Assembly: GCA_022484565.1 (NCBI GenBank)
Contig: JAKVKZ010000005.1
Coordinates: 1-64,000 of the forward strand
DNA: 64,000 nt
Direction: 5' to 3'
Source: Muribaculaceae bacterium
Lineage (GTDB): Bacteria > Bacteroidota > Bacteroidia > Bacteroidales > Muribaculaceae
Part shown: positions 31,615 through 62,300 of the stretch, piece by piece
How positions within the stretch are numbered: position 1 is the stretch's first letter
Layout: each line of letters starts with the position of its first letter
Notes under the pieces: model-generated
Seen by the model: the letters and a program-made list of their open reading frames with translations, nothing else
What the model was told of the DNA's origin: nothing
The model's database searches: none
Program-made: the position numbers and the translations under genes

Positions 31615-31667
31615 TTGTTTAATGTTTAAAGGTAATACTTACGTTTACTATTTAAAGTTTAACTATA

Positions 31668-31727
31668 CAAAAATACGCTTACCCTGACTTTTAAAAAATG
31701 GACAATAACACTATTTTGATGGATAAT
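31668..31727 (-). promoter_or_regulatory. Type I operator-promoter of the ELWxxDGT-SusC/D unit
   Basis: On the plus strand: -7 box CAAAAATA at 31668-31675, repeats TGGACAAT at 31699 and TGGATAAT at 31720 (21 bp apart, box-to-repeat distance 24). It probably drives the ELWxxDGT gene and, by read-through, the five-gene SusC operon. Confidence 0.8.
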
Positions 31728-32063
31728 CTTACACTGCGAGCGAACTCTTAACTTATTATAATAATGTGTAATTACAAATTGCAATAAGATAAATTCCTCT
31801 CACAAACCCATGCTTATTGAACTCTCAATAATAATTCGGTCGCAACCGCATAATAGCAGAATTCTTCATTTTTAGTTTTAGGTAATCTTTATCTACCACA
31901 AAAGTAGCTTATCAATTCAACTCACACTTTATATCCTGCTCCAAATAATTTATAAAATGTTCCAAATTCATGAAAATTCGAATAATTCATGCTCTTTTAG
32001 AAAATGTGCAATAATTCTTTGCGTAGTCTCAACCAGTTCATTCATAATGCGTAATGAGCAAAA
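31728..32063. other. Intergenic region between the two halves, no gene seen
   Basis: About 335 bp of AT-rich sequence between the type I operator and the terminator of the right-hand operon. I see no convincing ORF, operator or hairpin. It marks the boundary between the two regulatory halves of the locus. Confidence 0.6.
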
Positions 32064-32094
32064 ACTGCCTGACATTATCACAACGTCAGGCAGT
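32064..32094 (-). terminator. Intrinsic terminator of the right-hand SusC/D operon
   Basis: ACTGCCTGAC pairs with GTCAGGCAGT (10 bp), followed on the minus strand by TTTTTGC. It lies about 100 bp after the stop codon of the GH2 gene that ends the 45071-32193 operon. Confidence 0.85.
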
Positions 32095-32192
32095 CTCACT
32101 TATTTTGACCTTAAAAAAACTTCTGCTTAAACTCGTTAAGCCAACCTATGTCATCTTTTTCACCTTACGATTATATAATGTTGTGTTATATT

Positions 32193-41942: not shown

Positions 41943-41969
41943 TTCTATCTTTGTTTTTGTTTTGTACAT

Positions 41970-44900
41970 TTAGTTGAAGTTTAATTGAACTCCGAAATTG
42001 AACACCCGCAGTGTTGGATACGCGATTCCATAGTTGCCTACTTCAGGATCCCAATATTTGAATTTCGAGAAAGTCAATAAATTGGTTCCGCTCACATATA
42101 CTCTGAACTGCTTGATGGTATAACCAACCTCTGCATTCTTCAGACGCACGAAAGAGCCATCTTTCGACCAGAAGGTTGACGTCTGGGTGTTGTGCTGGTT
42201 GTCACTTGCCGTGAGACGTGGATAAGCAGCGTTTGGATCAGGATTGGCATCGCTCCAGTGGCTCTTGGCAATAAAGTCATACACTTGGAATCTGTAAGTT
42301 CCGAATGGGTGCATTCCCGACATTTGGATTGAAGTATTGGCAACTCCCTGGAAAAATATTGAGGCATCAAATTTTTTATATTTGACTGAAGCACCTATAC
42401 CATACACGATTTCAGGAACGGTTGGCTTGCCAATGAATGTGCGGTCGAAGCCATCAATCACGTTGTCGCCGTTGAGGTCCTTGTACTTGATGTCGCCGGC
42501 CATCACATTAGATTCAAAAGTTGGTCTAGCTAATTTGCCTGCCTTGATATCCTCGATATCTTGCGCAGTATATAGCCCCTCGGCTACATATCCGAAGGTG
42601 GAATTCAACGGATGACCTATTTCCGACTGATAACTATATATCTGTGCCGGTTCATCACGGTCCAAAAGCTTATTGGCTGCATAAGTGAATGTTCCTTTTA
42701 TCGACAAGATAAAGTCGGGCTTGAAGGCGTGGTTGAACTCAAGCGACATATCCACACCATGATTAGAGACTTTACCGATATTAGCGTACGGAAGTGCGCT
42801 ACCTATACCAACTGTGGTTGGAACCACACGGCGCTGCATGAAGATTCCGCTACGTGTTTCCTTGAAAATATCAGTTATAAGAGTCAATTCGTTGAATAAT
42901 CCGATTTCAATACCGCCATTTATTTTCTTACCAGTTTCCCACTTTGCGTCTTCCTCGCCATATTTGGAAATGCTGTAGCCATAGAGCGTGTTGTTCCATT
43001 GTTCGCCAAATGTATAGCCACGGTTGCCATCATTCAGATTAACTGATGTGATGTAAGGGAAACGTGGGTCGGTGAATGAATTTCCTACTAATCCGTAAGA
43101 ACCTCTGATTTTAAGCAAGCTTACTACGTGCCTGAACTTCGTGAAGAAGTCTTCATTGGAAATCAGGTATCCAACTGCAACTGATGGGAAGAAGCCAAAG
43201 CGGTGTCCCTTCTTGAAGTTTTCGCTGCCGTTGTAACCGAAGTTGAATTCAGCGAAATAGCGGGTCTTGTAGTTGTAAGTGAAACGTCCGGCAAGACCTT
43301 GCTCACGATATGCGAGGTTTCCGTAGAAATCCCATGAAGGCTGACGGAATTCACGTTGATGATACAGGAGCATAGCCGAAACATCATGGTCATTATTGAA
43401 TGTGCGATTGTAATCGACTGCTGCTTGAATGTTTATAGTATTGTTTGTCCAATGGGACACATCTTTCACGCTCACTGACTCCTCGCCCACCTGCATCTGG
43501 TTGATTGTGTAATCATAAGTGGTAGGATCGTAGGATGTAAGCTCATAGAAGAATGGATTGCTACCATAGGTGCTTGCTTTTTTCGACCAGAATTGAAATG
43601 AAATCAAGCCTCTGGCTGACAGCCCAGGAGTGATAAAGTCAAGTTTTTGTTCAATATTGAATGAAGAGAGCATATTCGTCTCAAATTCATTTTTTTGCTT
43701 GCTCAGCAGCAATGCCAATGGGTTGCCCACACCTACGCTGCTCTTATTGCCATAATAGATATGCTTAGAGCCTTCAGGAGTCGGGAATAATGCCGGAAAA
43801 TCTATAGGATCGGCCTGCATTGCCTTGTTGAACAATAAATTACTGGATTCACCAGGACCATCTGCATCACGGATTTGTGTCATGATGTGAAGACCTATCT
43901 TAGTGGTCTCAGTCAGCTTTGCATTGATGTTGTTCTGGAATGAATAACGTTGCTGGTGAATGTTGTTTGAATTGAATTGGCTTTGAGGGTAATCTCTATA
44001 CATACCCGTTTCATTGAAGAAACTGGCATTAACGAAATAATCAACTTTCTTTGAACCACCAGTTACATTTAGATTAGCTGAGAAGTTATGTGAAGCATTC
44101 TTGAACAGCAAGCCGTACCAGTCCACATCAGGATAAATATATTGATTCAAGTGCTGCTCGGTGGCATTGATTTGCTCATCGGAATAAGGTACAGTAGCTT
44201 CAGGGTTGCGCCCCAACGTAGCTTCGTTGTAAAGGCGCATATAGTTGGCACCATTCACGAATGAAGGTAACTTGTTAGGTTGCGAGATAAAATATTCGAA
44301 TCGTGCATTCACACGTGGCTTACCTAAATCTTGACCATTTTTTGTAGTGACAACCATTACACCGTTGGCACCTTTGGCACCATAAAGTGCGGTGGCAGTG
44401 GCATCCTTCAAAATAGAGAAACTCTCGATTGATTCAGGTGCAATGGCATTGAGGTCGGCAGCCGAAATTTCAACTCCGTCCATTACTATCAACGGGCTTG
44501 TAGGCCCGGCAAATGTGGATATACCGCGAATCCAGAAACTGGCTCCGTCAGCTCCAGGCTCGCCAGAGCGCTGTACGGCAATCACACCTGCTATCTTTCC
44601 TGCGAATGCAGTGGTGAGGGAACTTGACGGTACCGTCAAATCACTTCCTTTTAGCACTTGGATTGAACCGATTATGCTTTCCTTCTTTTGAGTACCGAAA
44701 CCAACTACTACGACTTCTGATATTTTTTTAGACTCATCGCTCAGTTCCACGAGCTTCAATTTGCTCATATTTGCTTCGGTAATCTCGATGGTCTGCGCTG
44801 TCATTCCAAGATATGAGAACTTCAATGCTTTAGCAGTTGTCGGCACCTCAATTTTATAGTTTCCATCCACATCGGTGTTTGTTCCTGTCGATGTTCCGGG

Positions 44901-45071
44901 CACTATCACCACAGCGCCAATCAGTGGCTCTTTAGTGGTCTGTGAAACCACCTGTCCACTTATTGTCCGTGTTGATGGCTTGTCAGCAAATACCGCCAAT
45001 GGGACAGAAAAAAAGAGGAATATTACAAGAATAAGTTTCCAAGTCTTTGAAAAGATGGATCTTCTATTCAT
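41970..45071 (-). CDS. SusC/RagA TonB-dependent oligosaccharide transporter
   Basis: Signal peptide about 1-29, carboxypeptidase-regulatory-like domain about 35-115 (SGQVVSQTTKEPLIGAVVIV), plug with VVVVGFGTQKKESIIGSI, FAGKIAGVIAVQRSGEPGAD and ISTFAGPTSPLIVMDGVEI, then the beta-barrel to the final LRVFNFGVQLNFN. 1033 aa is normal. Upstream there is only 94 bp to the modular protein gene, filled by a hairpin at 45090-45150 and lacking a recognisable -7 box or operator. Transcription by read-through from the type II promoter at 47899 is the simplest explanation. First of six operon genes SusC-SusD-GH30-GH30-GH27-GH2. Confidence 0.96.
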   Translation of the reverse strand: MNRRSIFSKTWKLILVIFLFFSVPLAVFADKPSTRTISGQVVSQTTKEPLIGAVVIVPGTSTGTNTDVDGNYKIEVPTTAKALKFSYLGMTAQTIEITEANMSKLKLVELSDESKKISEVVVVGFGTQKKESIIGSIQVLKGSDLTVPSSSLTTAFAGKIAGVIAVQRSGEPGADGASFWIRGISTFAGPTSPLIVMDGVEISAADLNAIAPESIESFSILKDATATALYGAKGANGVMVVTTKNGQDLGKPRVNARFEYFISQPNKLPSFVNGANYMRLYNEATLGRNPEATVPYSDEQINATEQHLNQYIYPDVDWYGLLFKNASHNFSANLNVTGGSKKVDYFVNASFFNETGMYRDYPQSQFNSNNIHQQRYSFQNNINAKLTETTKIGLHIMTQIRDADGPGESSNLLFNKAMQADPIDFPALFPTPEGSKHIYYGNKSSVGVGNPLALLLSKQKNEFETNMLSSFNIEQKLDFITPGLSARGLISFQFWSKKASTYGSNPFFYELTSYDPTTYDYTINQMQVGEESVSVKDVSHWTNNTINIQAAVDYNRTFNNDHDVSAMLLYHQREFRQPSWDFYGNLAYREQGLAGRFTYNYKTRYFAEFNFGYNGSENFKKGHRFGFFPSVAVGYLISNEDFFTKFRHVVSLLKIRGSYGLVGNSFTDPRFPYITSVNLNDGNRGYTFGEQWNNTLYGYSISKYGEEDAKWETGKKINGGIEIGLFNELTLITDIFKETRSGIFMQRRVVPTTVGIGSALPYANIGKVSNHGVDMSLEFNHAFKPDFILSIKGTFTYAANKLLDRDEPAQIYSYQSEIGHPLNSTFGYVAEGLYTAQDIEDIKAGKLARPTFESNVMAGDIKYKDLNGDNVIDGFDRTFIGKPTVPEIVYGIGASVKYKKFDASIFFQGVANTSIQMSGMHPFGTYRFQVYDFIAKSHWSDANPDPNAAYPRLTASDNQHNTQTSTFWSKDGSFVRLKNAEVGYTIKQFRVYVSGTNLLTFSKFKYWDPEVGNYGIAYPTLRVFNFGVQLNFN

Positions 45072-47898: not shown

Positions 47899-47965
47899 CA
47901 AATATATTCCAATTTTCCATCTTGTACTTTATTTCACGTTCCAAAAACACCAAATGTCGTTTCAA
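47899..47965 (-). promoter_or_regulatory. Type II operator-promoter of the A-B module/SusC/D unit
   Basis: On the plus strand: -7 box CAAATATA at 47899-47906, direct repeats CGTTCCAA at 47937 and CGTTTCAA at 47958. The repeats are 21 bp apart and the first starts 31 positions beyond the -7 box, exactly as at the 52158, 54875 and 59683 sites. The stretch between the repeats (AAACACCAAATGT) is also shared with the 52196 site. The -7 box lies 26 bp from the start codon. Confidence 0.8.
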
Positions 47966-48052
47966 CAGCAAGAAATTACAAAAAATGTACAATTCCACGC
48001 CGCAATCCATTCTTGATTTTGCTTTTGCTCTTATTATCGTCAGAAAACGAAA

Positions 48053-48079
48053 GGCTGAATACTATCACAGCATCCAGCC
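48053..48079 (-). terminator. Terminator hairpin of the GH30-A-B-C-D gene, shared 3' cassette
   Basis: In minus-strand RNA, GGCUGGAUGC pairs with GUAUUCAGCC over 10 bp using wobble pairs. On the plus strand the same positions mismatch, so the structure is conserved for minus-strand transcripts. Confidence 0.75.
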
Positions 48080-48156
48080 TTCTCCAATTATCAACTAAAA
48101 CTATTAATAAAAATCTGCCATTTTAAATAATCATATTAATCAAAGTCACAAAATAT

Positions 48157-51100
48157 TTAGTCAACCTTCACCTTACTTATTTTTCCACCAGCTTTTACTA
48201 TATATAATCCTGAAGGAACATTGATAACACCCTGATTATGCACATTCACAATCATTCGGCCAGTGAAATCATAAACTACTGCATCATTAGCACCCGTAAC
48301 ACTGATGAAACCTTCTCCGCCAATGATAGTTACCATGTTGGCTGAAACGCCTTCAATGCCTGTTGGCGTTAGATCATTCGCTATAAATGTTACAAGTTTA
48401 TGATTCCAATAGGAAGTCGAACCTATGCTTGCCACAGCTACATCAGTTGCATTATCATATAAGTCATCAGCCGTAGTGCTCACTGTCTTTATTCTTGCCT
48501 TACCTACGCTTTCAAGTGTAAGTGCCGGTGCGCTACTTACGCTCCAGCTGTCCTGAAGGGTATTGATTGTCCCAGCTTCAGACTTGACAATGCTTGCCAT
48601 TTCCGAACTTGTGTATGGGCCAGTTTTTACCATTAAATAGTGAGGGACAACAGCATAATTTACAGAAACGTTCGCTGACAATTTCGCTCCAGGAGTAGTG
48701 GTAGCGGCTACATCTGAGAAACTTGGGTTCATCAGATAAATATTTTGGGCTTTCATATCTGATACTCGTATTATGCTTCTGCTGCCAGCGACAGGAACAA
48801 TTGAAGTGTTGTTATAATCACTTAAAGTTCCGTCATCGCTTGTGCTTGCTGATTTCATCGGAGCATAGTAACTTGGCACATAGCCACCTGTCTTATCATC
48901 AGTTGCCGACACAGCTGCCACTGCTTGACCATTATTGAAGAGTTGCGTGGCAATAGACCCGATATTCACACCATTGTCTGTTATGTCGCCGCTGCCAAAA
49001 TAGGTAAGAGGTACAGTAGCTGTTTCAGTAAATACTGACCCGCTAATATTGTTGGCAGTAGGAGTATAGGTGAATGTCATCGGAGCTGATGTCTGTCCCT
49101 TAATTCCATAAAGGTCGAATGCATTTGACCCTTCGGCACAGTCACCGGTAATGGTTCGTCCATTAATAGTGGTTGAATAAGCCACAGCGTAATCTGTTGG
49201 CATTGTCTGCGACCAAGAAATATGAGTTCCAGGGAAAGTAAGTCTATAGTGGGTGCCAAACCATGTAGTGGTGGCTGTCGCCTTATTGTTGCTTCCATAT
49301 TCTATGGCCCTTTCTCCAACTATTGGCTCAACCGAACCAGATTGATAAGCTGAAGAGAAATTTCGCGAATTTGGGTCACCGTTAAGCACAATATCATCAA
49401 TGCCAGCTGTTATCCACCAGCCATTTACCGTGAAGCCTAAGAATTTCACAAGAGTGCCAACACCTAAATCAATTGTAACATCGTTCCACTTTTTCCTCGA
49501 ATTTGTGGAACTTGCGTGCATATTATCACCGTCTTCAGTAAATACCCACAAAGGCAATGATTGATAGGCAGTGGTGTCATTAGGATTATAGAAGTAGTGA
49601 ACATGCAGATAACGTGTGGCGGCTGTGGTGTAGCCATACACACCTGTGTAGCGGGCACCTCCATATTCAGAATATCCGCCATTCTCTATCCAAATTCTCA
49701 TACATTTTGCTGAGGTGTTGAGTACGGCAGCTTTATTGTATGGGTCAGCGTTCACGTCCGACCGATAAGTGGCTCCCTTGCCAGTATAATTGCTTGCCCA
49801 GCCTTCTCCACTGTTTGGACGTTCAAAATCAATGGTGAACGGAGTTAAGTTAGGGATTACTGGAGCGACATCGCAAAGGCGGATATCGTCAAGATAGAAA
49901 TTCCCGGCATAACGTGGCTCAACACGGAATTGATCGAATGTTACTCCAGATGGAATAGCAAAGCAATATTCATTCCAGATGGAATCCATCATTGTTGCTT
50001 TTGTTGGACTATATACAGTCCCTTCTGTTCCGCCATTAAACAATTGGATTGTGAAATTGGTATTGAATACTTTATCGGCGCGTATCTTCATATAAAGATA
50101 GCGAATGGCAGAAGTGGTAGTGGTGGATGGCACATTCACTCTAATTCCACTGTACCAGCTAAAGCCGGATTGCATTTGGAACGTGAGGCATTTCAGCGAG
50201 TAGTCGTTGCCGTCAGGTCTGGCGTTACTGGCAACTTGGAGTGTCCCCGACTGCACGTAATTGTCAATTGATGTAGTAGGAATTGTAGTTCCATCCTCAA
50301 ATGTGTAGTAAAACGCATTGTTAGAGTTATCTGCTACCGGAGTAACGTTTGTGGTTTCCACGAAAGTCACAATAGACCTTGGCGGCATATTGAATTGGTC
50401 ACCAGTATTAATGGCGGTAAGCGGACGCATTCCATCGTCAGGATTGTCAGTGGTTATGTAAGGGATGAACGAATGTTGCGTTCCATCGCTAAGAGTGAGA
50501 TTCACTACATTTGCGTTGTCACCATAATTCAGCATCACGCATACAAGTTTACCATCCGTATTTTTATATGACGAAACCATCATGCCAGTGATATTGTCCA
50601 CTGTACCTGAAGTGGAACTGGTTACAGTAAGGCGGTGAGCACCCGGGCGAATCCAACGGGAATATTGGCCGAAGCACCAAAAGGCCTTTGGCACTACCAC
50701 TTGCACATCACCATATACTCTGGCATATTCACTCGGCTCTATCGGACCATCGGTGGTGCTGCTTGTGAGCTGGTGAGCCACATCGAATGAGCCATTTTTC
50801 TTAAGATAGAGCAATCCATCGGTGTAAGGAATATCAGTAAGCCCAAGCCACCATTGCCAAGCCGAGGCATTGGCTAAAGAAAGGTCACAGTGCATGAGTC
50901 GCGCTATCATCAATCCATAATTGATGGAAAGGTCGGCTGTGTTTTGGTTTCTTACATACTTGTCGAGCGACTCATCGCCAATGCACCACTCGGTCTCCCA
51001 GTATTTTGTATTGTATTGGCTAAGCACAGATGGAAGTGGCGTTCGCAAATCCACAAGCTGAGAAGTGTTGGCTGCAGCGCTCCAATATCCATGAGCTGTG

Positions 51101-51972
51101 GCAATGCGTGCCACAGTTGACAAATTCCCCACATAAGCTGAGGAACTGCTGTTCCCAAATAAATTCTTTATTTTCTCCCAGTAATTACCATATCCCGAAG
51201 GCTTTGAATTAAGTAATTGTATTTTGCCGGCTTCCGGAATAAGGATTTTGGTGGTAATATTCTTCGATGTCAATTTGCTGTCGAGTGCCACGCAGATATT
51301 CTTTACATCATTGTTAGTGGCATTCATTCCTTCACCTGTTGAATGGTCCCACTCAGGCTCGTTGACTGGCGCAACATAATCGAATGTCACTCCATGTTCT
51401 TCCTTGGTGCGACGAAGCACTTCGCTAAGGTATTCAGTGAAATTCTGTATGCCGTTGTTATCAAGATTTAGCTTTTTATTATAAGTTGTACCTCCATTTG
51501 TCTGGCCGGTGATTGTCATAAAATATGGCGGAGAATTCACAAAACCAAGGGTGTACTCACATCCACGCTCTTTCGCTTTTTTCAGAAAGTTGAATTGGCC
51601 ACCGCATTTTCCAGTAAGACTTAGGTCGTAAGTGCCATCAGATTTCATGATGCATGGAGTGCGGGCACGCACATCGCGGAAATTACCAGAAACGTTGTCA
51701 TCGCTGCCGGCACCAAAGTTAACGCGCCACATGGAGAGGCCTATACCTTTAGGCCTTCCGTTAGCGTCTAAATCTTTGCTGAACAACAAGTCAGCTACTT
51801 TGTTGATATTTGCTTCGGTGGCATATTTACCGAATCTGTACATTGTCCAACAGTCGGATGCTCCGAAGTTGTCAATCTCCTGATTCGTCTGATCCACATG
51901 AATTTGATACGTCTGTGCAGATACAGTCCCGAAAGTAAATAACAGAGGAATTAATAATGATTTGAAATTCAT
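48157..51972 (-). CDS. GH30 fused to A-B-C-D modules with T9SS-like tail
   Basis: Signal peptide about 1-19 from the preferred ATG at 51972. GH30 (about 20-550) matches the tandem pair at 36-40 kb: QEIDNFGASDCWTMYRFGKY, MWRVNFGAGSDDN, acid/base E205 in VNEPEW, nucleophile E328 in YWETEWCIG, MPPRSIVTFVE at its end. Then follow module A (about 560-735, FYYTFEDGTTIPTTSIDNY), module B (about 740-900, ending IDDIVLNGDPNSR), the C region (GERAIEYGSNN, FPGTHISWSQTMPTDY), the D region (YVPSYYAPMKSAS, VVPHYLMVKTGP) and a tail (VYDFTGRMIVNV, PSGLYIVKAGGKI). In effect it is the operon GH30 with its short tail replaced by the binding-protein architecture. It has its own type II promoter and a roughly 180-nt leader. 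Confidence 0.88.
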   Translation of the reverse strand: MNFKSLLIPLLFTFGTVSAQTYQIHVDQTNQEIDNFGASDCWTMYRFGKYATEANINKVADLLFSKDLDANGRPKGIGLSMWRVNFGAGSDDNVSGNFRDVRARTPCIMKSDGTYDLSLTGKCGGQFNFLKKAKERGCEYTLGFVNSPPYFMTITGQTNGGTTYNKKLNLDNNGIQNFTEYLSEVLRRTKEEHGVTFDYVAPVNEPEWDHSTGEGMNATNNDVKNICVALDSKLTSKNITTKILIPEAGKIQLLNSKPSGYGNYWEKIKNLFGNSSSSAYVGNLSTVARIATAHGYWSAAANTSQLVDLRTPLPSVLSQYNTKYWETEWCIGDESLDKYVRNQNTADLSINYGLMIARLMHCDLSLANASAWQWWLGLTDIPYTDGLLYLKKNGSFDVAHQLTSSTTDGPIEPSEYARVYGDVQVVVPKAFWCFGQYSRWIRPGAHRLTVTSSTSGTVDNITGMMVSSYKNTDGKLVCVMLNYGDNANVVNLTLSDGTQHSFIPYITTDNPDDGMRPLTAINTGDQFNMPPRSIVTFVETTNVTPVADNSNNAFYYTFEDGTTIPTTSIDNYVQSGTLQVASNARPDGNDYSLKCLTFQMQSGFSWYSGIRVNVPSTTTTSAIRYLYMKIRADKVFNTNFTIQLFNGGTEGTVYSPTKATMMDSIWNEYCFAIPSGVTFDQFRVEPRYAGNFYLDDIRLCDVAPVIPNLTPFTIDFERPNSGEGWASNYTGKGATYRSDVNADPYNKAAVLNTSAKCMRIWIENGGYSEYGGARYTGVYGYTTAATRYLHVHYFYNPNDTTAYQSLPLWVFTEDGDNMHASSTNSRKKWNDVTIDLGVGTLVKFLGFTVNGWWITAGIDDIVLNGDPNSRNFSSAYQSGSVEPIVGERAIEYGSNNKATATTTWFGTHYRLTFPGTHISWSQTMPTDYAVAYSTTINGRTITGDCAEGSNAFDLYGIKGQTSAPMTFTYTPTANNISGSVFTETATVPLTYFGSGDITDNGVNIGSIATQLFNNGQAVAAVSATDDKTGGYVPSYYAPMKSASTSDDGTLSDYNNTSIVPVAGSRSIIRVSDMKAQNIYLMNPSFSDVAATTTPGAKLSANVSVNYAVVPHYLMVKTGPYTSSEMASIVKSEAGTINTLQDSWSVSSAPALTLESVGKARIKTVSTTADDLYDNATDVAVASIGSTSYWNHKLVTFIANDLTPTGIEGVSANMVTIIGGEGFISVTGANDAVVYDFTGRMIVNVHNQGVINVPSGLYIVKAGGKISKVKVD

Positions 51973-51995
51973 AATTAAAATTATTTTGCATAATC

Positions 51996-52024
51996 CTATC
52001 CCAATATCCATGGATATTGGATAG
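51996..52024 (-). promoter_or_regulatory. Palindrome in the 5' leader of the GH30-A-B-C-D gene
   Basis: CTATCCCAATATCCAT is followed directly by ATGGATATTGGATAG, a 15-bp near-perfect palindrome with one bulged C, 24 bp before the start codon. The -7 box is at 52158, so it would be in the transcribed leader. A leader attenuator, RNA stability element or protein site are all possible. Confidence 0.5.
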
Positions 52025-52157
52025 AACCATGCGGATTGTATTATTTAATTAATCACGATTTTATGACACTTGAATTCTAATCGACATCGTTCGCGGTAAT
52101 AGTTATTCTGTTAAAAGTAATAATCACCATTTCACGAGTTCATAGTTTTAATTGTTA

Positions 52158-52224
52158 CAAATTTATTCCGATTCCTAATAATTCGATTTATTTCATGTTC
52201 CAAAAACACCAAATGTCGTTTCAA
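52158..52224 (-). promoter_or_regulatory. Type II operator-promoter of the GH30-A-B-C-D gene
   Basis: On the plus strand: -7 box CAAATTTA at 52158-52165, repeats TGTTCCAA at 52196 and CGTTTCAA at 52217 (21 bp apart, box-to-repeat distance 31). The 52225-52369 segment beyond it is AT-rich with no other feature recognised. Confidence 0.8.
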
Positions 52225-52369
52225 TGACAAAAAATCATAAATAATTTTCAGGATTCCATATAATCAATACGTTTTTCTTATTGATTCATACAAATTCAAC
52301 TTCATTGATTTCAGATTTAAACTTCACACCTATTATAATATATATTCTTATCCACATTACTAAACAGAA

Positions 52370-52396
52370 GGCTGAATGCTTTCACAGCATCCAGCC
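52370..52396 (-). terminator. Terminator hairpin of the A-B-C-D gene, shared 3' cassette
   Basis: GGCTGAATGC / GCATCCAGCC, a 10-bp stem in minus-strand RNA with one wobble. It is about 92 bp past the stop codon and embedded in 3' flanking sequence nearly identical to that of the sister genes. Confidence 0.75.
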
Positions 52397-52487
52397 CTCG
52401 CCCATTATCAACTAAAACCATCTAAAAAATCAACTTTTCTCAAATACCGACATTATCATTCATACTTAACTTACGTGAACGAAAAAT

Positions 52488-54740
52488 TTAGTCAACTTTC
52501 ACCTTACTTACTTTTCCACCAGCTTTTACGATATACAGTCCTGAAGGAACATTAATTATGCTCTGATTATTTACGCTCTTAATCATTCGGCCCATAAAGT
52601 CATAGACCACTGCATTGTTTGCACCGGTGATATTGATGATGCCTTCTCCGCCAACGATAGATACTGCATCGACTGAAACGCCTTCGATGCCTGTTGGAGT
52701 TAAGGCATTAGCTACAAAGGTTACAAGTTTATGATTCGTTATGCCAGTTGCACCTGCTATGCTTGTCACGGCTACATCAGTTGCATTAGTATATAAGTCA
52801 TCTGCAGTTGTGCTTACAGCCTTTATTTTTGCCTTACCAACACTTTCCAGATTAAGTGCCGGTGCACTGCTTACGGTCCAACTGTCCTGAAGAGTATTGA
52901 TTGTTCCACTAACGGTTTCGACAATATTTCCCATTTCTGTGCTTGTGTAAGGACCAGTAGTTACCATTAAATAGTGAGGAACGACAGCGTAATTTACAGA
53001 AACATTAGATGTTAATTTATCTCCGGCTTTAGGTGCATATGCTGCAACTTCCGAAAAGCTTGGAGTCATCAGATAAATATTTTGGGCTTTCATATCCGAT
53101 ATTTTTATTATTGACAGTTTTTTAGTATTATCAGTGGAAACAGGAGTAACATCATTGCTATAATCACTAAAGGTTGCATCGTCACTTGAGCTTGTTGATT
53201 TCATTGGAGCATAGTAGCTCGGTACATACCCACCTGTCTTATTATCTGTTGCTGGCACTGATGCCACTGCCTCACCATTTTTATAAAGAACTGTTCCTAT
53301 AGTCCCAATATTCACGCCATTATCAGTTATTTCACTGCTTCCAAAATATGCAAGAGTAGCATTTTGAGTTTCAGTAAACGCTGAACCAGTCGTGTTACTT
53401 GCGGTTGGCGTATATGTGAATGTCATCTGTGCTGTCGTCGGCCCTTTTATTCCGTATAAATCAAGAGAGTTGGCTCCGTTAACACTTGTACCCGTAATTG
53501 GTCTTCCATTAATTGTAGTTGAATAACCTACCGTGTAATCTGATGGCATATTTAGTGCCCAAGTGATATGTGTTCCAGGGAATGTGAGTTTATAATGCTC
53601 ACTAAACCATGTGGTGGATGATGTTGCTTTTGCCCCACCATAACTTATAGCCCTTTCTCCAACTATTGGTTCAATCGAAACTGATTGATAAGCAGAAGTG
53701 AAATTGCGCGAATTAGGGTCTCCGTTGAGCACTATGTCGTCAATGCCTAAAGTAATCCACCAATGTTCCATTGTGAAGGTTAGATAACTTACCAATGTTC
53801 CAACTCCTAAATCTATAGTCACATCGTTCCACTGACCCATGGCATTTGACGAGCTTGTGAAATGTGTTTCTCCATCTGCGGTAAACACCCATAAAGGCTC
53901 TGAAGCTAAAACAGTCTTATCTGTGGACTTATAAAAATAGCGGACGTGAAGATATCGAGTACTTTCGGTTGTATAGCCATATACTCCAGTGTAACGGCCA
54001 CCACTGAAATCAGTAGAAGCTCCATGTTGAACCCAAATTCTCATGCCATTGCCCGATGCCGCAAGGAAAGGATCATTAGTTAACGCATCTCTGTACGTAC
54101 TACCGTTGGCACTATTATTTGTCCAACCGCTACCACTACCTGATGGCTCAAAATCAATCATAAATGGTTTCAAATTTGGTATCCCCTCATCACTTAAGCG
54201 AATGTCATCAACATAAAAGACACTTTGGTATTGCGGCTCAACACGTATGCAATCAAACGTTGTTCCTACGGGAATCTCATAACAATATTCTTTCCATGTT
54301 TGATCTATCATTGTTGCTCGAGTCGCCTTCAAGTCTAAATTTATATATGCTGGATTTGTTCCACCTGACTCTGTCCCATTATACAATGATACCATGAAGT
54401 AATTATTGGTGACCGTTGAGCTCATCGATGCATCGGCACGTACTTTTAAATAGAGATAACGCATACTTGCTGTTGTCGTTGTTTGCGTCAAAGTAAAATA
54501 AATACCACCCCACGATGGAATGCCGCTTTGCGTTTCAAACGTATAACATTTCAATGAATTATCAATACCTGTGGTAACCGAATTATCAATAACTTTGTAA
54601 GAATTATCGGCCACATAATAACGTTGAGGCACTGTTGGCGTATGCGCAGCATCCTCAAATGTGTAATTATACGCATCAGTTGCATTAGCAAAGACTGCTA
54701 TTGCAAACATACAGATTAATAATGTAATTTTTCGTTTCAT
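52488..54740 (-). CDS. Secreted A-B-C-D modular protein with T9SS-like tail
   Basis: Signal peptide about 1-20. Module A (about 22-200) begins YNYTFEDAAHTPTVPQRYY and ends VEPQYQSVFYVDDIRLS. Module B (about 200-355) has MRIWVQHGASTDFSGGRYT and WNDVTIDLGVGTLVSYLTF and ends IDDIVLNGDPNSR. Region C (about 360-480) includes VGERAISYGG and FPGTHITWALNMPSDY. Region D (about 480-680) includes YVPSYYAPMKSTS and VVPHYLMVTTGPYTS. The tail (about 690-750) is VYDFMGRMIKSV, PSGLYIVKAGGKV. No catalytic domain was seen; it is the non-enzyme counterpart of the 48157-51972 protein. It is divergent from the HTCS with a type II operator-promoter. Confidence 0.8.
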   Translation of the reverse strand: MKRKITLLICMFAIAVFANATDAYNYTFEDAAHTPTVPQRYYVADNSYKVIDNSVTTGIDNSLKCYTFETQSGIPSWGGIYFTLTQTTTTASMRYLYLKVRADASMSSTVTNNYFMVSLYNGTESGGTNPAYINLDLKATRATMIDQTWKEYCYEIPVGTTFDCIRVEPQYQSVFYVDDIRLSDEGIPNLKPFMIDFEPSGSGSGWTNNSANGSTYRDALTNDPFLAASGNGMRIWVQHGASTDFSGGRYTGVYGYTTESTRYLHVRYFYKSTDKTVLASEPLWVFTADGETHFTSSSNAMGQWNDVTIDLGVGTLVSYLTFTMEHWWITLGIDDIVLNGDPNSRNFTSAYQSVSIEPIVGERAISYGGAKATSSTTWFSEHYKLTFPGTHITWALNMPSDYTVGYSTTINGRPITGTSVNGANSLDLYGIKGPTTAQMTFTYTPTASNTTGSAFTETQNATLAYFGSSEITDNGVNIGTIGTVLYKNGEAVASVPATDNKTGGYVPSYYAPMKSTSSSDDATFSDYSNDVTPVSTDNTKKLSIIKISDMKAQNIYLMTPSFSEVAAYAPKAGDKLTSNVSVNYAVVPHYLMVTTGPYTSTEMGNIVETVSGTINTLQDSWTVSSAPALNLESVGKAKIKAVSTTADDLYTNATDVAVTSIAGATGITNHKLVTFVANALTPTGIEGVSVDAVSIVGGEGIINITGANNAVVYDFMGRMIKSVNNQSIINVPSGLYIVKAGGKVSKVKVD

Positions 54741-54874
54741 AAAATATTATTTTAAATGTTTAGAATTCGCAAAAAATATTAGGACATTTATTTGAACATC
54801 AACAACGCGACTTAAAAGTGGATATATAATAATGTAAGAATATTCTTTCCACTGTCATTAAGTTTTAGTTGATG

Positions 54875-54941
54875 CAAATTTATTTCAGGCATTTTATTTT
54901 CACTTTAATCCACGTTTCAAAAAGTATCAATCACGTTTCGC
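54875..54941 (-). promoter_or_regulatory. Type II operator-promoter of the A-B-C-D gene
   Basis: On the plus strand: -7 box CAAATTTA at 54875-54882, repeats CGTTTCAA at 54913 and CGTTTCGC at 54934 (21 bp apart, box-to-repeat distance 31). The predicted leader of about 130 nt contains a weak stem AGTGGA (54817) / TCCACT (54848). Confidence 0.8.
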
Positions 54942-54993
54942 AATAAAAAAAATCCATAAAATCCATATCAACATTTTTGACAGTTTTATTTGA

Positions 54994-55022
54994 CGTTTCA
55001 ATTTCTTTAATTCACGTTTCAA
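54994..55022. promoter_or_regulatory. Second type II direct repeat, next to the HTCS gene
   Basis: Two perfect CGTTTCAA copies at 54994 and 55015, 21 bp apart, in the same orientation as the other type II sites. No minus-strand -7 box lies at the fixed 31 distance. On the plus strand a TATCTTTA (55070-55077, one base off TAnnTTTG) precedes the HTCS start. It may serve autoregulation of the HTCS or be a second site for the divergent gene. Confidence 0.65.
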
Positions 55023-55158
55023 AACAAAAAAAACATAAAACCAAACCTTTCCCCTATTGAAAAAAACACTATCTTTACAAAGAATAAATCAAGGGGAGCA
55101 TTTTTGTTCATTATCCCCAAAGCATTAATTGTCAACTCTTACCGACAAAACCATTATT

Positions 55159-58100
55159 ATGAGACGTTATCTTTTAGCATTATTTTGCGCCACTCTGTGC
55201 TTCTATCCGAATTTCACGGCACAGACTTTCTCCATACGCAACTACACCAGCTACGACGGACTGGTGAGTGATAAGATTATGAGTATCCAGCAGGACTATA
55301 TGGGCAGGATATGGATAGGCACGCCTCACGGACTATGCTGCTTCGACGGGTCGGAATACACACATTACACAAAAAGCCAAAACATCCCCAACCATATTTC
55401 CAACAATATCGTGCAGACCATTCTTCCACGCCCCAATGGTGACGTGTGGTTCGGTACTCCTGACTCATTGAACATTTATTGCTGGAAAGACGATAAAATA
55501 CATGCCTATGGCAAAGTAAAAGGACTAAAATCGAAAGACATTACAGTTCTTGCCAACGGCAGTAACGGCAGCGTTTGGCTTGGAACTTTTGGAGAAGGCA
55601 TTTTCAGATACGATGAAAAGAAGGACGCATTTTCCACAATCAGCGCAATAGCAAGGCAACATGGCACTGCAAAAATCATGGCACTGTGCGAAGATTCCAA
55701 CCGTCAGCTTTGGATAGGCACACGCTATAACGGATTATTCATCTACACTCCAAACACAAACGAATGCAGGCAAATAAGCGGAATTTCACCAAATGATTTC
55801 GTGAAAATAATTTTTCAGGACCTAAGCGGAAACATTTGGGTAGGGACTGACACCAATTTATATCATATAGAGAATAATGAGGCCAGGCCTGTGAATCAGC
55901 AGGTTTTCGCCGGAAAGAGCATTTTCTCAATTTGCGAGAATCCTGCCGGCACGCTATGGGTAGGATGCGATGAATTATTGACACAATTCAAGCCAAACGA
56001 TTTATTTGCCAGCGACGGAGCCAGCATAAGCACTGTTTTTCACAATTACGACTACTCCCACAAAGGCATACACTCAATGCTTAGCGACAAGGACGGCAAC
56101 CTGTGGATCGGCACTTACGGTGAAGGAATAAAGGCCATAAACCATTATTCATATTTCTCTCACATAATCCCTGGCGAGAGCAATATCACCGAACCGGCTT
56201 TTCCTTTTGCCACCTATGCCATCAGCCAAGCCCCTAACGACGAAATGTGGCTTGGAAAAGAGAGGATTGGAGTGCTGCGATATAATTTCGACACTCAGAA
56301 AGTAACTGAAGCAATCAAGCTTAATAAATCAGACGTTTTAGCCCTACTGGAAGACAACGGCGGAAATCTATGGATAGGAACTACTGCTGACGGACTTCTT
56401 CTGCGGCGGAAAAACGCACAAAGCCCCACCCGCATAGCCAATCCGATAGGGACTAGTGTGCGGTCGATATTTCAGGCCAAGGACTCTTCAATATACATTT
56501 CAGATGTAAATGGCTTTTTCCGCACTAAGGATGTCGGGAAAAACTGGGAAAATGTGCTCCAGCACTGGTATGCCAAAAATCCTGACGTAAGGTGCGCCGA
56601 ACAGGATGCAATGGGCCGCCTCTGGCTCGGCACCTATAATAGCGGACTATTCTGCTACGACCCTCGCCGGCACAGTCTCCATCCATATCTCAAGCCCAAT
56701 GGACTAAAATCAAACATCATCTTCGATGTGCTGATTGACGGAAACACATTATGGATTGCCACAGATGAGGGACTGGCCTCCTACTCCATCACTTCCGGCT
56801 CATTCACTAACCAATTCCCATGCCGGAATATCCCCGACATCTCAATCTTTGCCATCCAAAAGGACAAACTCGGCAATTTGTGGTTTTCTTCATCAATGGG
56901 ACTTTGGCAATATGAAGTAAAACATCACAGGATATATCATTTCTCAGCCCGCAACCTGCCTAAGATAAGTGAATTCACTGAAGGTGCCTCGGCAATTGAC
57001 ACTCAAGGGAATGTGTATTTCGGCTCGTTCAATGGCCTGCTGCAAATCAATCCCTACCACAATCAAATAGTAGCCAACAAAACGAATCTTATCTTCACAA
57101 AGGTGGTTATAGACGACCAAGAGGTTGTCCCCGACGCTGAATCATCACGGTCGAATCTGACCGAAAATGTGAATGTCAGTCGCCAGATAAATATCTATTC
57201 ACAAAACCATTCCGTCACCATCCATTTCTCGCTCCCTTATTACGACAGGGACGTGCAATATTATTACAAGCTCGACAAAAATGATGAAGGCTGGAAATTA
57301 TTGGGAAATCAGAACTGGGTGACGTTCCGCGACCTCAACCCTGGTGATTACCACCTGATAGTCCGCGCAGTGGTGGAAAGTGACCATACCGAAACGTTAT
57401 CGGAAATTCAGATTTCAGTTTTTCCTCCGTTGTGGGCCACTTGGTGGGCCAAAATATTCTATTTCCTTGTGATTTGCACGGCACTGTGGTATGCCTTTCA
57501 TTTGGTTAAGTCGCGTATGCGTATGGCCCATAGCATTGAGATTGAAAAGAACAACCGCAAGAGGGAGGAGGAAATTCATGAGGCAAAATTGATGTTCTTC
57601 ACTAATTTAAGCCATGAACTCCGCACCCCGCTGACGCTGCTTCTCACTCCATTGCAGGAATTAATCAGCCACGAAACCAATGAGAGCAAGAAGAATACAT
57701 TGAAAATAATCAACAAGAGCGCCAACCGCCTGATGCTCCTCGTGAATCAGATTCTCGATTTCAGAAAGAGTGAAAAGGGAGAAATGAAACTTTCAGTGCA
57801 AAAAGTTGATTTTCCTAATTACATCAACGACATAAGCTCGTATTTCAAGGAATTGGCAAAGGATAAAAACATAGATTTCTCCCTGATAACGCATCAACTT
57901 CCTGAACAGGTTTGGATTGACCCTGACAAGATTGAGAAAATATGCTTCAATCTGCTTTCAAACTCATTCAAATTCACTCCTAAAAACGGGCATATAGAAT
58001 TATCCGTTTCAGCCGACGGCGAATGGCTCACACTGAAAGTATCCGACAATGGCATAGGAATCCAGCAGGAATCACAAAAGTCAATATTCAAGGCCTTCTT

Positions 58101-59172
58101 TCAGGAAAATCGGCCTATTCCCGATGCAAACCACACGACCATAAACAGCGGTTCGGGCATCGGGCTGCATCTCGTGAAGAGTATTGCCGAACTTCACCAC
58201 GGCTACATATCATTCAGCAGCGTGCCTGATGCGGAGACCATATTTACTGTAAGAATCCCCTACCTCAAGGAGGCCTACGATGAAAAGGAAATATCGACCG
58301 GTAAGCAGCTATTGCCTCAGGACATCATCCCTTCAGGGCAAATCAGCACGCCAGAGGCCCTCTCTGCACAAAAGCAACAACAATCACATATTCTGCTCGT
58401 TGAGGATAATGAGGACCTTCTCAACTATATCCAGCCTATTCTTTCAAAGCGATATCAGGTTTCAGTCGCCCACAATGGAATTGAAGCCGTGGAACTGGTG
58501 AAAAATGAGGAATTCGACCTTATTATCAGCGATGTAATGATGCCTCAAATGAACGGCTTGGAACTGTGTAAATTCTTGAAAGGGAATAATGAGACCAACT
58601 ATATTCCTATCATTCTCCTCACCGCAAAATCAAGCATGGACGACATGATTGAAGGCGCGGAAACAGGTGCTGATGCCTATATCACAAAACCTTTTAACCT
58701 CACTTATCTGATTGCACGCATCGACCAGATTCTTGGAAGCCGGCAAATTCTGAGGAATAAATTCTCCCAGATTTCGGAGCAGAACCTGAATTTGAAAAAC
58801 AGTGGCGGAGTTGAAAACAAATTCATGTACGAAGTCACAGAAATTATTCTTGCACACATCTCGGAAGAGAACCTGAACGGAAATATCATAGCGAATGATC
58901 TGTGCATGAGCCGTACAAGCCTGCACCGCAAGCTGAAGTCGATAGCCGGCATTTCGGCAGGCGAACTGATCAAGAATATCCGCATCTCCAAAGCATCCCG
59001 GGAACTGCTCCAAACTAATTCCACCGTTTCAGAAATAGCTTTCCGAAATGGATTCAGCAGCCTGTCGTACTTCTCGCAGAGCTTCGCCAGCATTTATAGC
59101 ATGAGTCCTAAAGAATATCGTCAGCAAAACCCGAATTTCACGGACAAGAATCCTGACGACACCGAATCATAA
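55159..59172 (+). CDS. Hybrid two-component system (HTCS) sensor-regulator
   Basis: Single-protein sensor and activator. The signal peptide starts at the ATG at 55159 (an upstream TTG at 55129 is less likely). The periplasmic sensor is a double propeller of about 12-14 Reg_prop repeats (about 25-690, for example MGRIWIGTPHGLCCF, DGNLWIGTYGEGIKAI) with a Y_Y_Y domain (about 690-755). A transmembrane helix (about 764-786) follows. Then come the histidine kinase with H819 in NLSHELRTP, the ATPase N box NLLSNSFKF, G boxes DNGIGI and GSGIGLHLV, a receiver with D1125 in ISDVMMPQMNG, and a C-terminal AraC-type HTH (about 1225-1330, ending MSPKEYRQ). Type II repeats lie directly upstream and at neighbouring promoters, so it is the best candidate activator of the right-hand half. 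Confidence 0.95.
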   Translation: MRRYLLALFCATLCFYPNFTAQTFSIRNYTSYDGLVSDKIMSIQQDYMGRIWIGTPHGLCCFDGSEYTHYTKSQNIPNHISNNIVQTILPRPNGDVWFGTPDSLNIYCWKDDKIHAYGKVKGLKSKDITVLANGSNGSVWLGTFGEGIFRYDEKKDAFSTISAIARQHGTAKIMALCEDSNRQLWIGTRYNGLFIYTPNTNECRQISGISPNDFVKIIFQDLSGNIWVGTDTNLYHIENNEARPVNQQVFAGKSIFSICENPAGTLWVGCDELLTQFKPNDLFASDGASISTVFHNYDYSHKGIHSMLSDKDGNLWIGTYGEGIKAINHYSYFSHIIPGESNITEPAFPFATYAISQAPNDEMWLGKERIGVLRYNFDTQKVTEAIKLNKSDVLALLEDNGGNLWIGTTADGLLLRRKNAQSPTRIANPIGTSVRSIFQAKDSSIYISDVNGFFRTKDVGKNWENVLQHWYAKNPDVRCAEQDAMGRLWLGTYNSGLFCYDPRRHSLHPYLKPNGLKSNIIFDVLIDGNTLWIATDEGLASYSITSGSFTNQFPCRNIPDISIFAIQKDKLGNLWFSSSMGLWQYEVKHHRIYHFSARNLPKISEFTEGASAIDTQGNVYFGSFNGLLQINPYHNQIVANKTNLIFTKVVIDDQEVVPDAESSRSNLTENVNVSRQINIYSQNHSVTIHFSLPYYDRDVQYYYKLDKNDEGWKLLGNQNWVTFRDLNPGDYHLIVRAVVESDHTETLSEIQISVFPPLWATWWAKIFYFLVICTALWYAFHLVKSRMRMAHSIEIEKNNRKREEEIHEAKLMFFTNLSHELRTPLTLLLTPLQELISHETNESKKNTLKIINKSANRLMLLVNQILDFRKSEKGEMKLSVQKVDFPNYINDISSYFKELAKDKNIDFSLITHQLPEQVWIDPDKIEKICFNLLSNSFKFTPKNGHIELSVSADGEWLTLKVSDNGIGIQQESQKSIFKAFFQENRPIPDANHTTINSGSGIGLHLVKSIAELHHGYISFSSVPDAETIFTVRIPYLKEAYDEKEISTGKQLLPQDIIPSGQISTPEALSAQKQQQSHILLVEDNEDLLNYIQPILSKRYQVSVAHNGIEAVELVKNEEFDLIISDVMMPQMNGLELCKFLKGNNETNYIPIILLTAKSSMDDMIEGAETGADAYITKPFNLTYLIARIDQILGSRQILRNKFSQISEQNLNLKNSGGVENKFMYEVTEIILAHISEENLNGNIIANDLCMSRTSLHRKLKSIAGISAGELIKNIRISKASRELLQTNSTVSEIAFRNGFSSLSYFSQSFASIYSMSPKEYRQQNPNFTDKNPDDTES

Positions 59173-59197
59173 GCATAAAAATCCACCATATCGCAAA

Positions 59198-59212
59198 TCC
59201 CATAGTATGGGA
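59198..59212 (+). terminator. Possible HTCS terminator palindrome
   Basis: TCCCATA G TATGGGA, a 7-bp stem with a single-base centre, 26 bp after the HTCS stop. There is no clear T-run and the loop is too short to be typical. The next hairpin at 59247 could serve instead. Confidence 0.3.
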
Positions 59213-59246
59213 GACCGTGCTTTATATTCATCATTAAATAATGGAA

Positions 59247-59273
59247 GACTGAATGCTTTCGCAGCATCCAGCC
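59247..59273. terminator. Hairpin after the decayed cassette copy
   Basis: GACTGAATGC / GCATCCAGCC is the cassette terminator with one extra substitution in the stem. It is followed by the same ATAAACTAAAACCATCTAAT-type 3' flank as the intact genes. It lies between the convergent HTCS gene and the pseudogene and could terminate both. Confidence 0.6.
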
Positions 59274-59376
59274 TTCACTCATTATAAACTAAAACCATCT
59301 AATAAATCAACCTTTCTCGCATAACAACATAATTGTTCATACCTAATGTTTACTTAATCGTCAATTTAGTCAACTT

Positions 59377-59640
59377 TCACCTTACATTTTTTCTACCAGC
59401 TTTTACAATATCTTTATCCCGAAAGAACATTAATCTATTTACTCTCTTAATCATTCGGCACATAAAGTCATAAACCATTCCATTGTTTGCGCCAATGACT
59501 TTGATGATACCTTCACTGCCAACGATAGGCGCTGTGACTGATGCCAAAATTTCAATTCCTTCCGGCTTCAAATCAGCCTTGAATGTCACTGACCTATGAT
59601 TTGTCCATAAAGCGGTCGTCATCAAGAGCAATTCTGAAAA
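59377..59640 (-). pseudogene. Decayed remnant of a C-D-tail modular protein gene
   Basis: An 84-codon frame (59377-59631) reads SVTFKADLKPEGIEILAS, then GSEGIIKVIGANNGMVYDF and MCRMIKRVN. It aligns with the last 80 residues of the 59983-62229 protein (SVTFKAGLVPTGIEGVSA, GGEGIINITGASNAVVYDF). Then the match breaks: the NQSIINVPSGLY segment is lost or frameshifted and the end reads DIVKAGRKNVR. Everything upstream of the end of region D is missing, yet about 40 bp upstream a type II -7 box and degraded operator repeats survive, and the shared terminator follows. It is a gene with an internal deletion, not an active gene. Confidence 0.75.
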
Positions 59641-59682
59641 GTAAACATTTCCTTTTCACAATTGCCATAGCTTAAGTCAATG

Positions 59683-59749
59683 CAAATGTATCACAGTTAT
59701 GTAACTTTCAGTTTAGCATTTGATTCAAAAAGTTCCATTTTTGTGCCAA
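59683..59749 (-). promoter_or_regulatory. Degenerate type II operator-promoter of the pseudogene
   Basis: On the plus strand: -7 box CAAATGTA at 59683-59690, then TGATTCAA at 59721 and TGTGCCAA at 59742, each 6 of 8 to CGTTYCAA. The 31 and 21 spacings are exactly those of the intact type II sites, which is why I accept such weak repeats. The rest of 59750-59864 shows no other feature. Confidence 0.5.
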
Positions 59750-59864
59750 TCTCATAAAATGGCCTGCACACAATCAAATGCGTCCTGTAAATCACGGAGA
59801 ATTGCCATTTTTATTACTGTTCCAATATTCTGAAAATATATTTAAGGCAAGCCATTAATAACAA

Positions 59865-59891
59865 GGCTGGATGCTTTCGCAGCATCCAGCC
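59865..59891 (-). terminator. Terminator hairpin after the 59983 gene, shared 3' cassette
   Basis: GGCTGGATGC / GCATCCAGCC, a perfect 10-bp stem with a 7-nt loop, the best-formed member of the cassette hairpin family. On the minus strand the stem is followed by TTGTTATT. Confidence 0.8.
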
Positions 59892-59982
59892 TTCTCTCAT
59901 TATCAACTAAAACCATCTAAAAAATCATTTCTTTTCGCATAACAACATAATCATTCATAATTAAATTATGCGGATAATAAAT

Positions 59983-62229
59983 TTAGTCAACTTTCACCTT
60001 GCATACTTTTCCACCAGCTTTTACGATATACAGTCCTGAAGGAACATTAATTATGCTCTGATTATTTACGCTCTTAATCATTCGGCCCATAAAATCGTAA
60101 ACCACTGCATTGCTTGCGCCGGTGATATTGATGATGCCTTCTCCGCCAACGATAGAAACCGCACCGGCTGAAACGCCTTCGATGCCTGTTGGAACCAAAC
60201 CAGCTTTGAATGTAACAGACATATGATTTGTCACCGCAGCTCCACCAATTTCATCGCCAGCTATACTCGATACGCCAACATCACTTGAATGCGCGTATAA
60301 GTCATCCGCTGTTCTGCTTATAGTTGCAGGAACATTTGCATTTAAGGTCCAACTGTCCTGAAGAGTATTGATTGTCCCATCAACGGTTTTCACAATACTG
60401 CTCATCTCATCCTTTGTGAAAGGGCCACTGGTTACCATCAAATAATGAGTGACAACAGCATAATTTACAGTAAAGTCCTGTGCTAAATTCGTTCCAGCAG
60501 TTGTTGTTTTGGCAACATCCGAGAAGGCCGGACTCATCAGGTAAACCTTTCGAGCTTGCATCTCTGATATGTTTATTAATTTCGTACTGTCAGCGGCAGG
60601 TACGATTGTAGCGTTGCTGTAATTATTTAATACAGTGTTGTCGCTTGAGCCTGAAGCTTTCATTGGAGCATAATAACTCGGCACATAGAAATCACTCGTC
60701 TCTCTCGCATGCACTGTTGCCACTGCTTCACCGTTTGTAAAAAGTTGTGGGGTAATTGAATCGATGTTTACTGTATTGCCAGTTATGTCTTTACTCCCAA
60801 AATATTCAAGCGGTACATTCATAGTCTCAACATATTCTGTTCCTGTAGTGTTGCTTGCAGTAGGGGTGTATGTTATTTTCACAGTGACTGACTTTTGTCC
60901 ATAAACCCCATAAAGTTCGTCGAGATAGTTAAACCCGTCATAACAGCTGCCTGTAAACGTACGCCCATTGATAGTAGTTGAATAATTCGCAGTATAGCCG
61001 GTTGGAATCGTCTGGTTCCATAGAACCTGAGTCCCTGGGAAAATAAGTCTGTAATGTTCACTGAAGTCCGTGGTGGCAGATGTAGCTTTATCAGTGCTGC
61101 CATATTTTATCGCCCTTTCACCAACTTTGCTGGGATAAAGGTCAAATGATGCTAAATCCGTCGCGCTACGACTGCTTTCACCATTGAGCACAATATCATC
61201 TATACCAACATCAATCCATTGTCCTGCCATGTTGAATGCTAAATACTCAACCAAAGTACCCACGCCTAAATCAACAGTAACATCATTCCATTGACCTTTA
61301 ATACTTGCATCATCACTTGTGAAAGCTACCGCATCGTTTCCCCCATGGGTAAATATCCTCATGGATTGATTGGTTGTAGAAGTGCCTCCAGCAAAATAAT
61401 ATCTAAAATGCAGATAACGGGTGCTTTCAGTCGTCTTTCCATACACACCTGTGTAACGCACTCCACCATAATTTGGCTCAGCTCCATTTCCAATATGGAA
61501 CCTCAACCATCTTGAAGTACCATTTTCTGCTATAGGAGTGCCAGAGGTTGGGTCCACATAAATATATTCGCCATCACTTATCGGATACATTCCATTGAGA
61601 ATCCAATTGTTGTCAACTGGTCCGTTTCCTTTATCGTCAATGGCTAAATCCTCAAAATCACAAGATAATCCCTTTAAATCAGGAATTGTTGGAGCCACAT
61701 CACTTAGACGGATATCATCTATATAAAATGTTCCCGTATTTCGCGGCTGTATCCTGATTTTGTTAAAATCAGCTGTGGAAGGTATCTCGAAGCAATATTC
61801 CTTCCAAGTTCCGTCAAATCTTGGTCCTGGAATCGCTGATAAGGGAATGTTAAGGTCGGTGTCGTCTTTAAATAATAATATTCCGAAATTGGCATTAAAT
61901 GCCCCATTGGGGATATCAGCACGCACTTTCATGTAAATGTAGCGTCCAGAAGCTGCCGCAGAAGATGGAAGATTAACGTAAGCGCCTTCCCACCACCAGC
62001 CAAAATTAGCAGCTGCGACATTTGTTGTTAAGGAAAGGCATGTCGCTGAATTGTTAATGCCATCTGTCAACGTATTTGTCGCACTGGCATTAACTGTCAC
62101 ATTGCCTGACGTTGAAGATGTGGTCGGTGTATTCCCTGCATCTTCAAATGTGTAGTCATACGTATCAGTTGCATTAGCACATAGCGCCGCTGCAAGTGAC
62201 AAAGCCAAGAAAACAATTTTTACTTTCAT
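59983..62229 (-). CDS. Secreted A-B-C-D modular protein with T9SS-like tail
   Basis: Signal peptide from the preferred ATG at 62229 (MKVKIVFLALSLAA); a second ATG at 62256 is unlikely. Module A (about 20-195) starts YDYTFEDAGNTPTTSST and ends IRIQPRNTGTFYIDDIRLS. Module B (about 198-360) has a variant binding face, GMYPISDGEYIYVDP and WLRFHIGNGAEPNYGGVRYT, and ends VGIDDIVLNGES. The C region (VGERAIKYGSTD, FPGTQVLWNQTIPTGY), D region (VVTHYLMVTSGPFTK) and tail (VYDFMGRMIKSV, PSGLYIVKAGGKV) follow. No catalytic domain. It starts about 70 bp after the 62301 gene, without an operator or -7 box between, so the two are probably co-transcribed. Confidence 0.8.
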   Translation of the reverse strand: MKVKIVFLALSLAAALCANATDTYDYTFEDAGNTPTTSSTSGNVTVNASATNTLTDGINNSATCLSLTTNVAAANFGWWWEGAYVNLPSSAAASGRYIYMKVRADIPNGAFNANFGILLFKDDTDLNIPLSAIPGPRFDGTWKEYCFEIPSTADFNKIRIQPRNTGTFYIDDIRLSDVAPTIPDLKGLSCDFEDLAIDDKGNGPVDNNWILNGMYPISDGEYIYVDPTSGTPIAENGTSRWLRFHIGNGAEPNYGGVRYTGVYGKTTESTRYLHFRYYFAGGTSTTNQSMRIFTHGGNDAVAFTSDDASIKGQWNDVTVDLGVGTLVEYLAFNMAGQWIDVGIDDIVLNGESSRSATDLASFDLYPSKVGERAIKYGSTDKATSATTDFSEHYRLIFPGTQVLWNQTIPTGYTANYSTTINGRTFTGSCYDGFNYLDELYGVYGQKSVTVKITYTPTASNTTGTEYVETMNVPLEYFGSKDITGNTVNIDSITPQLFTNGEAVATVHARETSDFYVPSYYAPMKASGSSDNTVLNNYSNATIVPAADSTKLINISEMQARKVYLMSPAFSDVAKTTTAGTNLAQDFTVNYAVVTHYLMVTSGPFTKDEMSSIVKTVDGTINTLQDSWTLNANVPATISRTADDLYAHSSDVGVSSIAGDEIGGAAVTNHMSVTFKAGLVPTGIEGVSAGAVSIVGGEGIINITGASNAVVYDFMGRMIKSVNNQSIINVPSGLYIVKAGGKVCKVKVD

Positions 62230-62300
62230 TGATATCTTATTGTATTTAACTTTCATTAATTACTGAAGTTATAGCCATGTAATAGCTAAAATCCACTTGC

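Follow-up and report, generated by a model that had tools for sequence, protein, structure and literature searches.

Direct repeats of the AraC I1/I2 type involve an AraC-type HTH, with an A-box and a B-box in each half-site and a 21-bp tandem arrangement, and their proximal half-site lies at the upstream promoter element. For the HTCSs of Bacteroides, the predicted motifs are direct repeats with a mean of 21 bp between tandem sites (PMC3878776). Most HTCSs also carry an S/CHIP motif in the receiver, which belongs to the S/CHIP-DK inhibitory interface (PMC11253607), and the -7 consensus of the phylum Bacteroidota is TAnnTTTG (PMC7366714). Another paper, PMC12125979, was considered as a source on HTCS sites and set aside, as it treats a Vibrio XylR-like regulator and has no bearing on them.

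The window, that is the whole stretch of DNA analysed here, takes up the initial 64 kb of a contig of 73.8 kb from a genome that is 82.5% complete and is the sole member of its genus. It is a Bacteroidota-type polysaccharide-utilization region with SusC/SusD pairs and several GH30, GH2, GH95 and sulfatase genes; a single open reading frame (13950-16835) combines a sulfatase with a GH30-type domain. Similar terminator-like hairpins with their flanks follow genes at 48038-48152, 52355-52469, 59232-59346 and 59850-59964. The regulator HTCS-A (55159-59172, plus strand, with ATG 55159 as its likely start) has the make-up of an HTCS protein, since a periplasmic propeller sensor (Reg_prop repeats and Y_Y_Y), HisKA, HATPase_c, a receiver and an AraC-type HTH are found in a single chain. 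Its likely -7 element, TATCTTTA (55070-55077, plus strand), recurs as an identical string upstream of a second regulator, HTCS-B (contig C5:67762-71793; L001:3720-7796), which lies just past the window, is preceded by type II-like tandem pairs of its own and is 81% identical to HTCS-A, the first recognition helix being nearly unchanged. A SusC gene (41970-45071) and a SusD gene (40089-41969) are located on the same contig as both HTCS genes, in keeping with the location of HTCS operators. Searches of the genus, the family, the order and the GTDB collection gave no close ortholog of HTCS-A, the best matches reaching about 30-37% identity, and no clear 21-bp repeat shows in the intergenic regions next to the three nearest HTCSs found in the order. 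A by-eye alignment finds NYIP and not S/CHIP in the receivers of both HTCS-A and HTCS-B, at the alpha3-beta4 loop. According to PMC11253607, DNA binding by the unphosphorylated proteins would then be expected to be less strongly inhibited, and HTCS-A could possibly bind DNA independently of phosphorylation.

Three sites on the minus strand, which the preliminary description had already grouped as a second operator type with a fixed geometry, display exactly the same layout, made of an octamer, 13 bp, a second octamer, 30 bp and TAnnTTTG. The first (47899-47965), TTGAAACG-N13-TTGGAACG-N30-TATATTTG, is, we infer, the promoter of a gene series running from 47872 to 32193 that encodes a surface protein, SusC, SusD, GH30s, a GH27-like protein and a GH2. 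The second (52158-52224) lies upstream of a gene encoding a GH30 protein (48157-52011), and the third (54875-54941), GCGAAACG-N13-TTGAAACG-N30-TAAATTTG, upstream of a surface-protein gene (52488-54740). A search with TTGAAACG as both octamers, allowing up to 3 mismatches, gives 4 matches in the window and none in 100 shuffles. Within the intergenic DNA of the contig, pairs of TTGAAACG (at most 2 mismatches in total) occur 4 times at a lag of 21 (shuffle mean 0.01); lags 14-20 and 22-29 have none. Because no shuffle matches and 21 is the only lag at which octamer pairs are seen, this type II layout is not due to chance.

The same layout extends to less regular sites. A worn copy had been reported at 59683 (59683-59749, minus strand); its layout is indeed intact, but its octamers (TTGGCACA / TTGAATCA) carry 5 mismatches to TTGAAACG, so that it is better described as a degenerate site, nearer to the HTCS-B-type sites. 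Downstream of it lies a remnant (59389-59604, minus strand) of a truncated paralog of the surface protein encoded at 59983-62256, with 55% identity to residues 676-750 of this protein (tblastn, E 1.5e-18). A distal tandem pair absent from the preliminary description, TTGAAACG-N13-TTGAAACG (54994-55022, minus strand), consists of two perfect octamers located between the divergent promoters of HTCS-A and gene 52488-54740; it lacks its own -7 box at the spacing seen in type II and has a counterpart at the HTCS-B locus. Type II sites are not confined to the right half of the window, as had been thought, since a type II-like site (31899-31965, minus strand; TTGGAACA / TTGGAGCA, TACTTTTG) that departs from TTGRAACR-N13-TTGRAACR-N30-TANNTTTG at 1 position is found in the left half, upstream of the type I promoter at 31668 and in the same intergenic region. 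Region 31615-32192 therefore carries the type II-like site 31899 and the type I site 31668 in tandem before one gene series, an arrangement that suggests dual control. Past the window, further type II-like sites (contig positions 64745, 67492 and 73507) surround HTCS-B. The genome-wide scan that had been put forward as a check finds that the sites gather around the two HTCS genes, with 1 comparable match elsewhere, on contig C23 (G000:C23:27495-27561; L191:9896-9962). This match precedes two genes named by eye, a rhamnulokinase-like one and then a rhamnose isomerase-like one, and may be read by a different AraC-type protein.

The HTCS-A and HTCS-B intergenic regions are 62% identical overall, and half-site positions 3, 5, 7 and 14-17, which were picked post hoc, are identical in all 4 half-sites that they contain. 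These positions conserved between the two regions define the type II half-site, TTGnAACr-n5-TAAA, about 17 bp in length.

The reading that we favour with good confidence is that the type II sites are the operators of HTCS-A and/or HTCS-B, consisting of direct repeats of these half-sites of about 17 bp with a 21-bp period and probably acting in a class II-like activation, and that the type I sites, in the corresponding position, are probably read by an AraC-cupin regulator. The assignment to the HTCS of 55159-59172, already proposed, remains the most likely one in view of the clustering of the sites, their 21-bp repeats and the HTCS-susC matches, with the reservation that its paralog HTCS-B is also a candidate. 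The 21 bp between tandem sites corresponds to the mean spacing published for predicted HTCS operators. Among 396 other genomes of the family, the type II pattern (at most 1 mismatch) has 7 matches, 3 of which fall in the stretch separating the 3' end of an HTCS gene from an adjacent susC (2 if near-identical relatives are counted once). A generic scan covering 155 promoters in the vicinity of other HTCS genes gives mild support, with 8 lag-21 repeats versus 0.3 in shuffled sequences, lags 12, 22 and 23 being also above chance and some of the hits being simple repeats. The genome encodes several further AraC-type HTH proteins, and the C23 site precedes rhamnose-type genes, where a soluble AraC-type regulator is expected; it is nevertheless unlikely that one of these proteins, and not the HTCSs, reads the type II sites, given that the sites cluster around both HTCS genes, that tandem pairs are conserved at both HTCS promoters and that sites adjoin HTCS genes in other genera.

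The type I sites, used here as a comparison set, are all on the minus strand (31668-31727, 19076-19135, 16982-17041, 4030-4089 and a weak one with 4 mismatches, 7654-7713). They are defined by the octamer ATTRTCCA, and the scan of the family used this pattern with its -7 box. Of 397 family genomes, 21 contain it, and 20 of these carry an ortholog of an AraC-cupin protein (query, the 297-aa protein G000:C32:22047-22940); this ortholog is found in 38 of the 397 genomes (E <= 1e-40). The co-occurrence has an odds ratio of about 377 (Fisher 3e-21 without the genome studied here), uncorrected for genome kinship, and in five genomes a type I site lies at most 600 bp from the AraC-cupin gene. The best NCBIfam match of the protein is an AraC model, with a score below the model cut-off. 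As type I is confined almost entirely to genomes with the AraC-cupin ortholog, these sites are probably not HTCS sites and would be those of the AraC-cupin regulator encoded on contig C32. The distinction between two operators made in the preliminary description is supported.

The repeat period is 21 bp in both types, and the distance from the octamer to TAnnTTTG is 30 bp in type II versus 23 bp in type I. The arithmetic behind the 7-bp difference noted previously is correct, but its interpretation as an activator sitting two-thirds of a helical turn further upstream in type II is not supported. Taking the T of TAnnTTTG as 0, the octamers extend from -52 to -45 and from -31 to -24 in type I, and from -59 to -52 and from -38 to -31 in type II. 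Outside the search octamer, type I sites carry a G at -57 in 8 of 10 sites of this genome and 19 of 27 family sites, and a G at -36 in 7 of 10 but in just 10 of 27 family sites. Type II sites carry both G's in 8/8 sites, these positions being part of the search pattern. The conserved footprint spans about -60 to -20 in both types. Because of these shared G's and of this common footprint, the two octamers would be different boxes of one half-site: the 7-bp shift is best understood as an effect of register, the type I octamer being the downstream B box and the type II octamer the upstream A box of an AraC-type half-site. On the simplest reading, there would be one AraC-type half-site, conserved mostly in its B-box in type I and mostly in its A-box in type II. 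A true displacement of the activator by 7 bp would account for the distances of 30 and 23 bp, yet it has little probability: it explains neither the G's that type I conserves beyond its own octamer nor the fact that type II conservation reaches TAAA at about -25 to -22, which would be needless for a footprint ending 7 bp upstream. A comparison of whole matrices also goes against it, shift 0 being better than shift -7 in 4 of 4 versions, although a shift of +11 comes top in 3 of 4, which makes this a weak test. The register reading suggests that seemingly different promoter geometries in the phylum can reduce to one layout, for HTCSs and soluble AraC regulators alike, and this layout, with an A-box G at -57 and -36 before TAnnTTTG, could help to predict operators of uncharacterised HTCSs.

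As the surface-protein genes and terminators of the neighbourhood are mutual duplicates, modules having been copied as units, common descent of the sites must be weighed. That recent duplication of whole modules, with no shared operator, is all that the type II similarity reflects is very improbable even though these genes and terminators are repeats of each other, since sites 47899 and 52158 are identical at 37 of 38 operator positions versus 10 of 21 in the spacer and 25 of 60 in the upstream flank, the exact layout is found at 54875 too, and similar sites adjoin other HTCS genes in other genera.

If the type II sites are operators of the HTCSs, the following mechanism can be proposed from the arrangement of the sites. 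Each site would be a direct repeat, with a 21-bp period, of the AraC-type half-site of about 17 bp, TTGnAACr-n5-TAAA. Counted from TAnnTTTG, the A-box G's would fall at -57 and -36, with the proximal B-box occupying roughly -25 to -22. This proximal B-box would cover the expected position of the -33 element; TTG is absent at the position of this element from most of these promoters. The HTCS would sense a glycan product, its presumed ligand, bind the two tandem half-sites as a side-by-side dimer and activate transcription like a class II activator. At the type I sites, the same place would probably be read by the soluble AraC-cupin regulator from contig C32.

The operators associated with the two paralogs are not fully alike. 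At the HTCS-A and HTCS-B promoters, position 8 of the half-site is G versus A, respectively, in all four half-sites. When sites are assigned by position, the HTCS-A set has G there in 7 of its 8 half-sites and the HTCS-B set has A in 11 of its 12; G thus occurs in 7/8 versus 1/12 (Fisher 8e-4, with half-sites that are non-independent and a grouping made post hoc). One may tentatively suppose, as a possibility that does not have the balance of probability on its side, that the duplicated HTCS genes split their regulons through a matching operator change at position 8. If true, this would offer a snapshot of the co-divergence of regulator and operator after duplication of a polysaccharide-utilization locus. 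The G/A divergence between the two regulons is the part of this work most worth following, and the HTCS-A/HTCS-B pair provides a test case for the mutual insulation of newly duplicated HTCSs.

Globally, the type II sites are real and are most likely operators of an already known kind, and they give an orphan HTCS a likely operator and regulon. Like AraC I1/I2, they are associated with an AraC-type HTH and made of half-sites with A- and B-boxes repeated every 21 bp, the proximal one lying at the upstream promoter element. They differ from AraC I1/I2 by the Bacteroidota -7 promoter TAnnTTTG, by the replacement of the soluble arabinose sensor by an HTCS membrane hybrid kinase, and by a TAAA B-box instead of the TCCAT of AraC; the type I sites, with TCCAT, are closer to AraC sites than type II sites are. 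The operators predicted for the HTCSs of Bacteroides thetaiotaomicron (Ravcheev et al. 2013, PMC3878776) resemble type II in being direct repeats with a mean of 21 bp, located upstream of susCD and glycan-degradation genes and near the HTCS gene. In comparison with these, type II has an apparently distinct motif, TTGnAACr-n5-TAAA, and its fixed distance to TAnnTTTG has been measured. Moreover, the present locus associates two close HTCS paralogs with sites that differ at one position.
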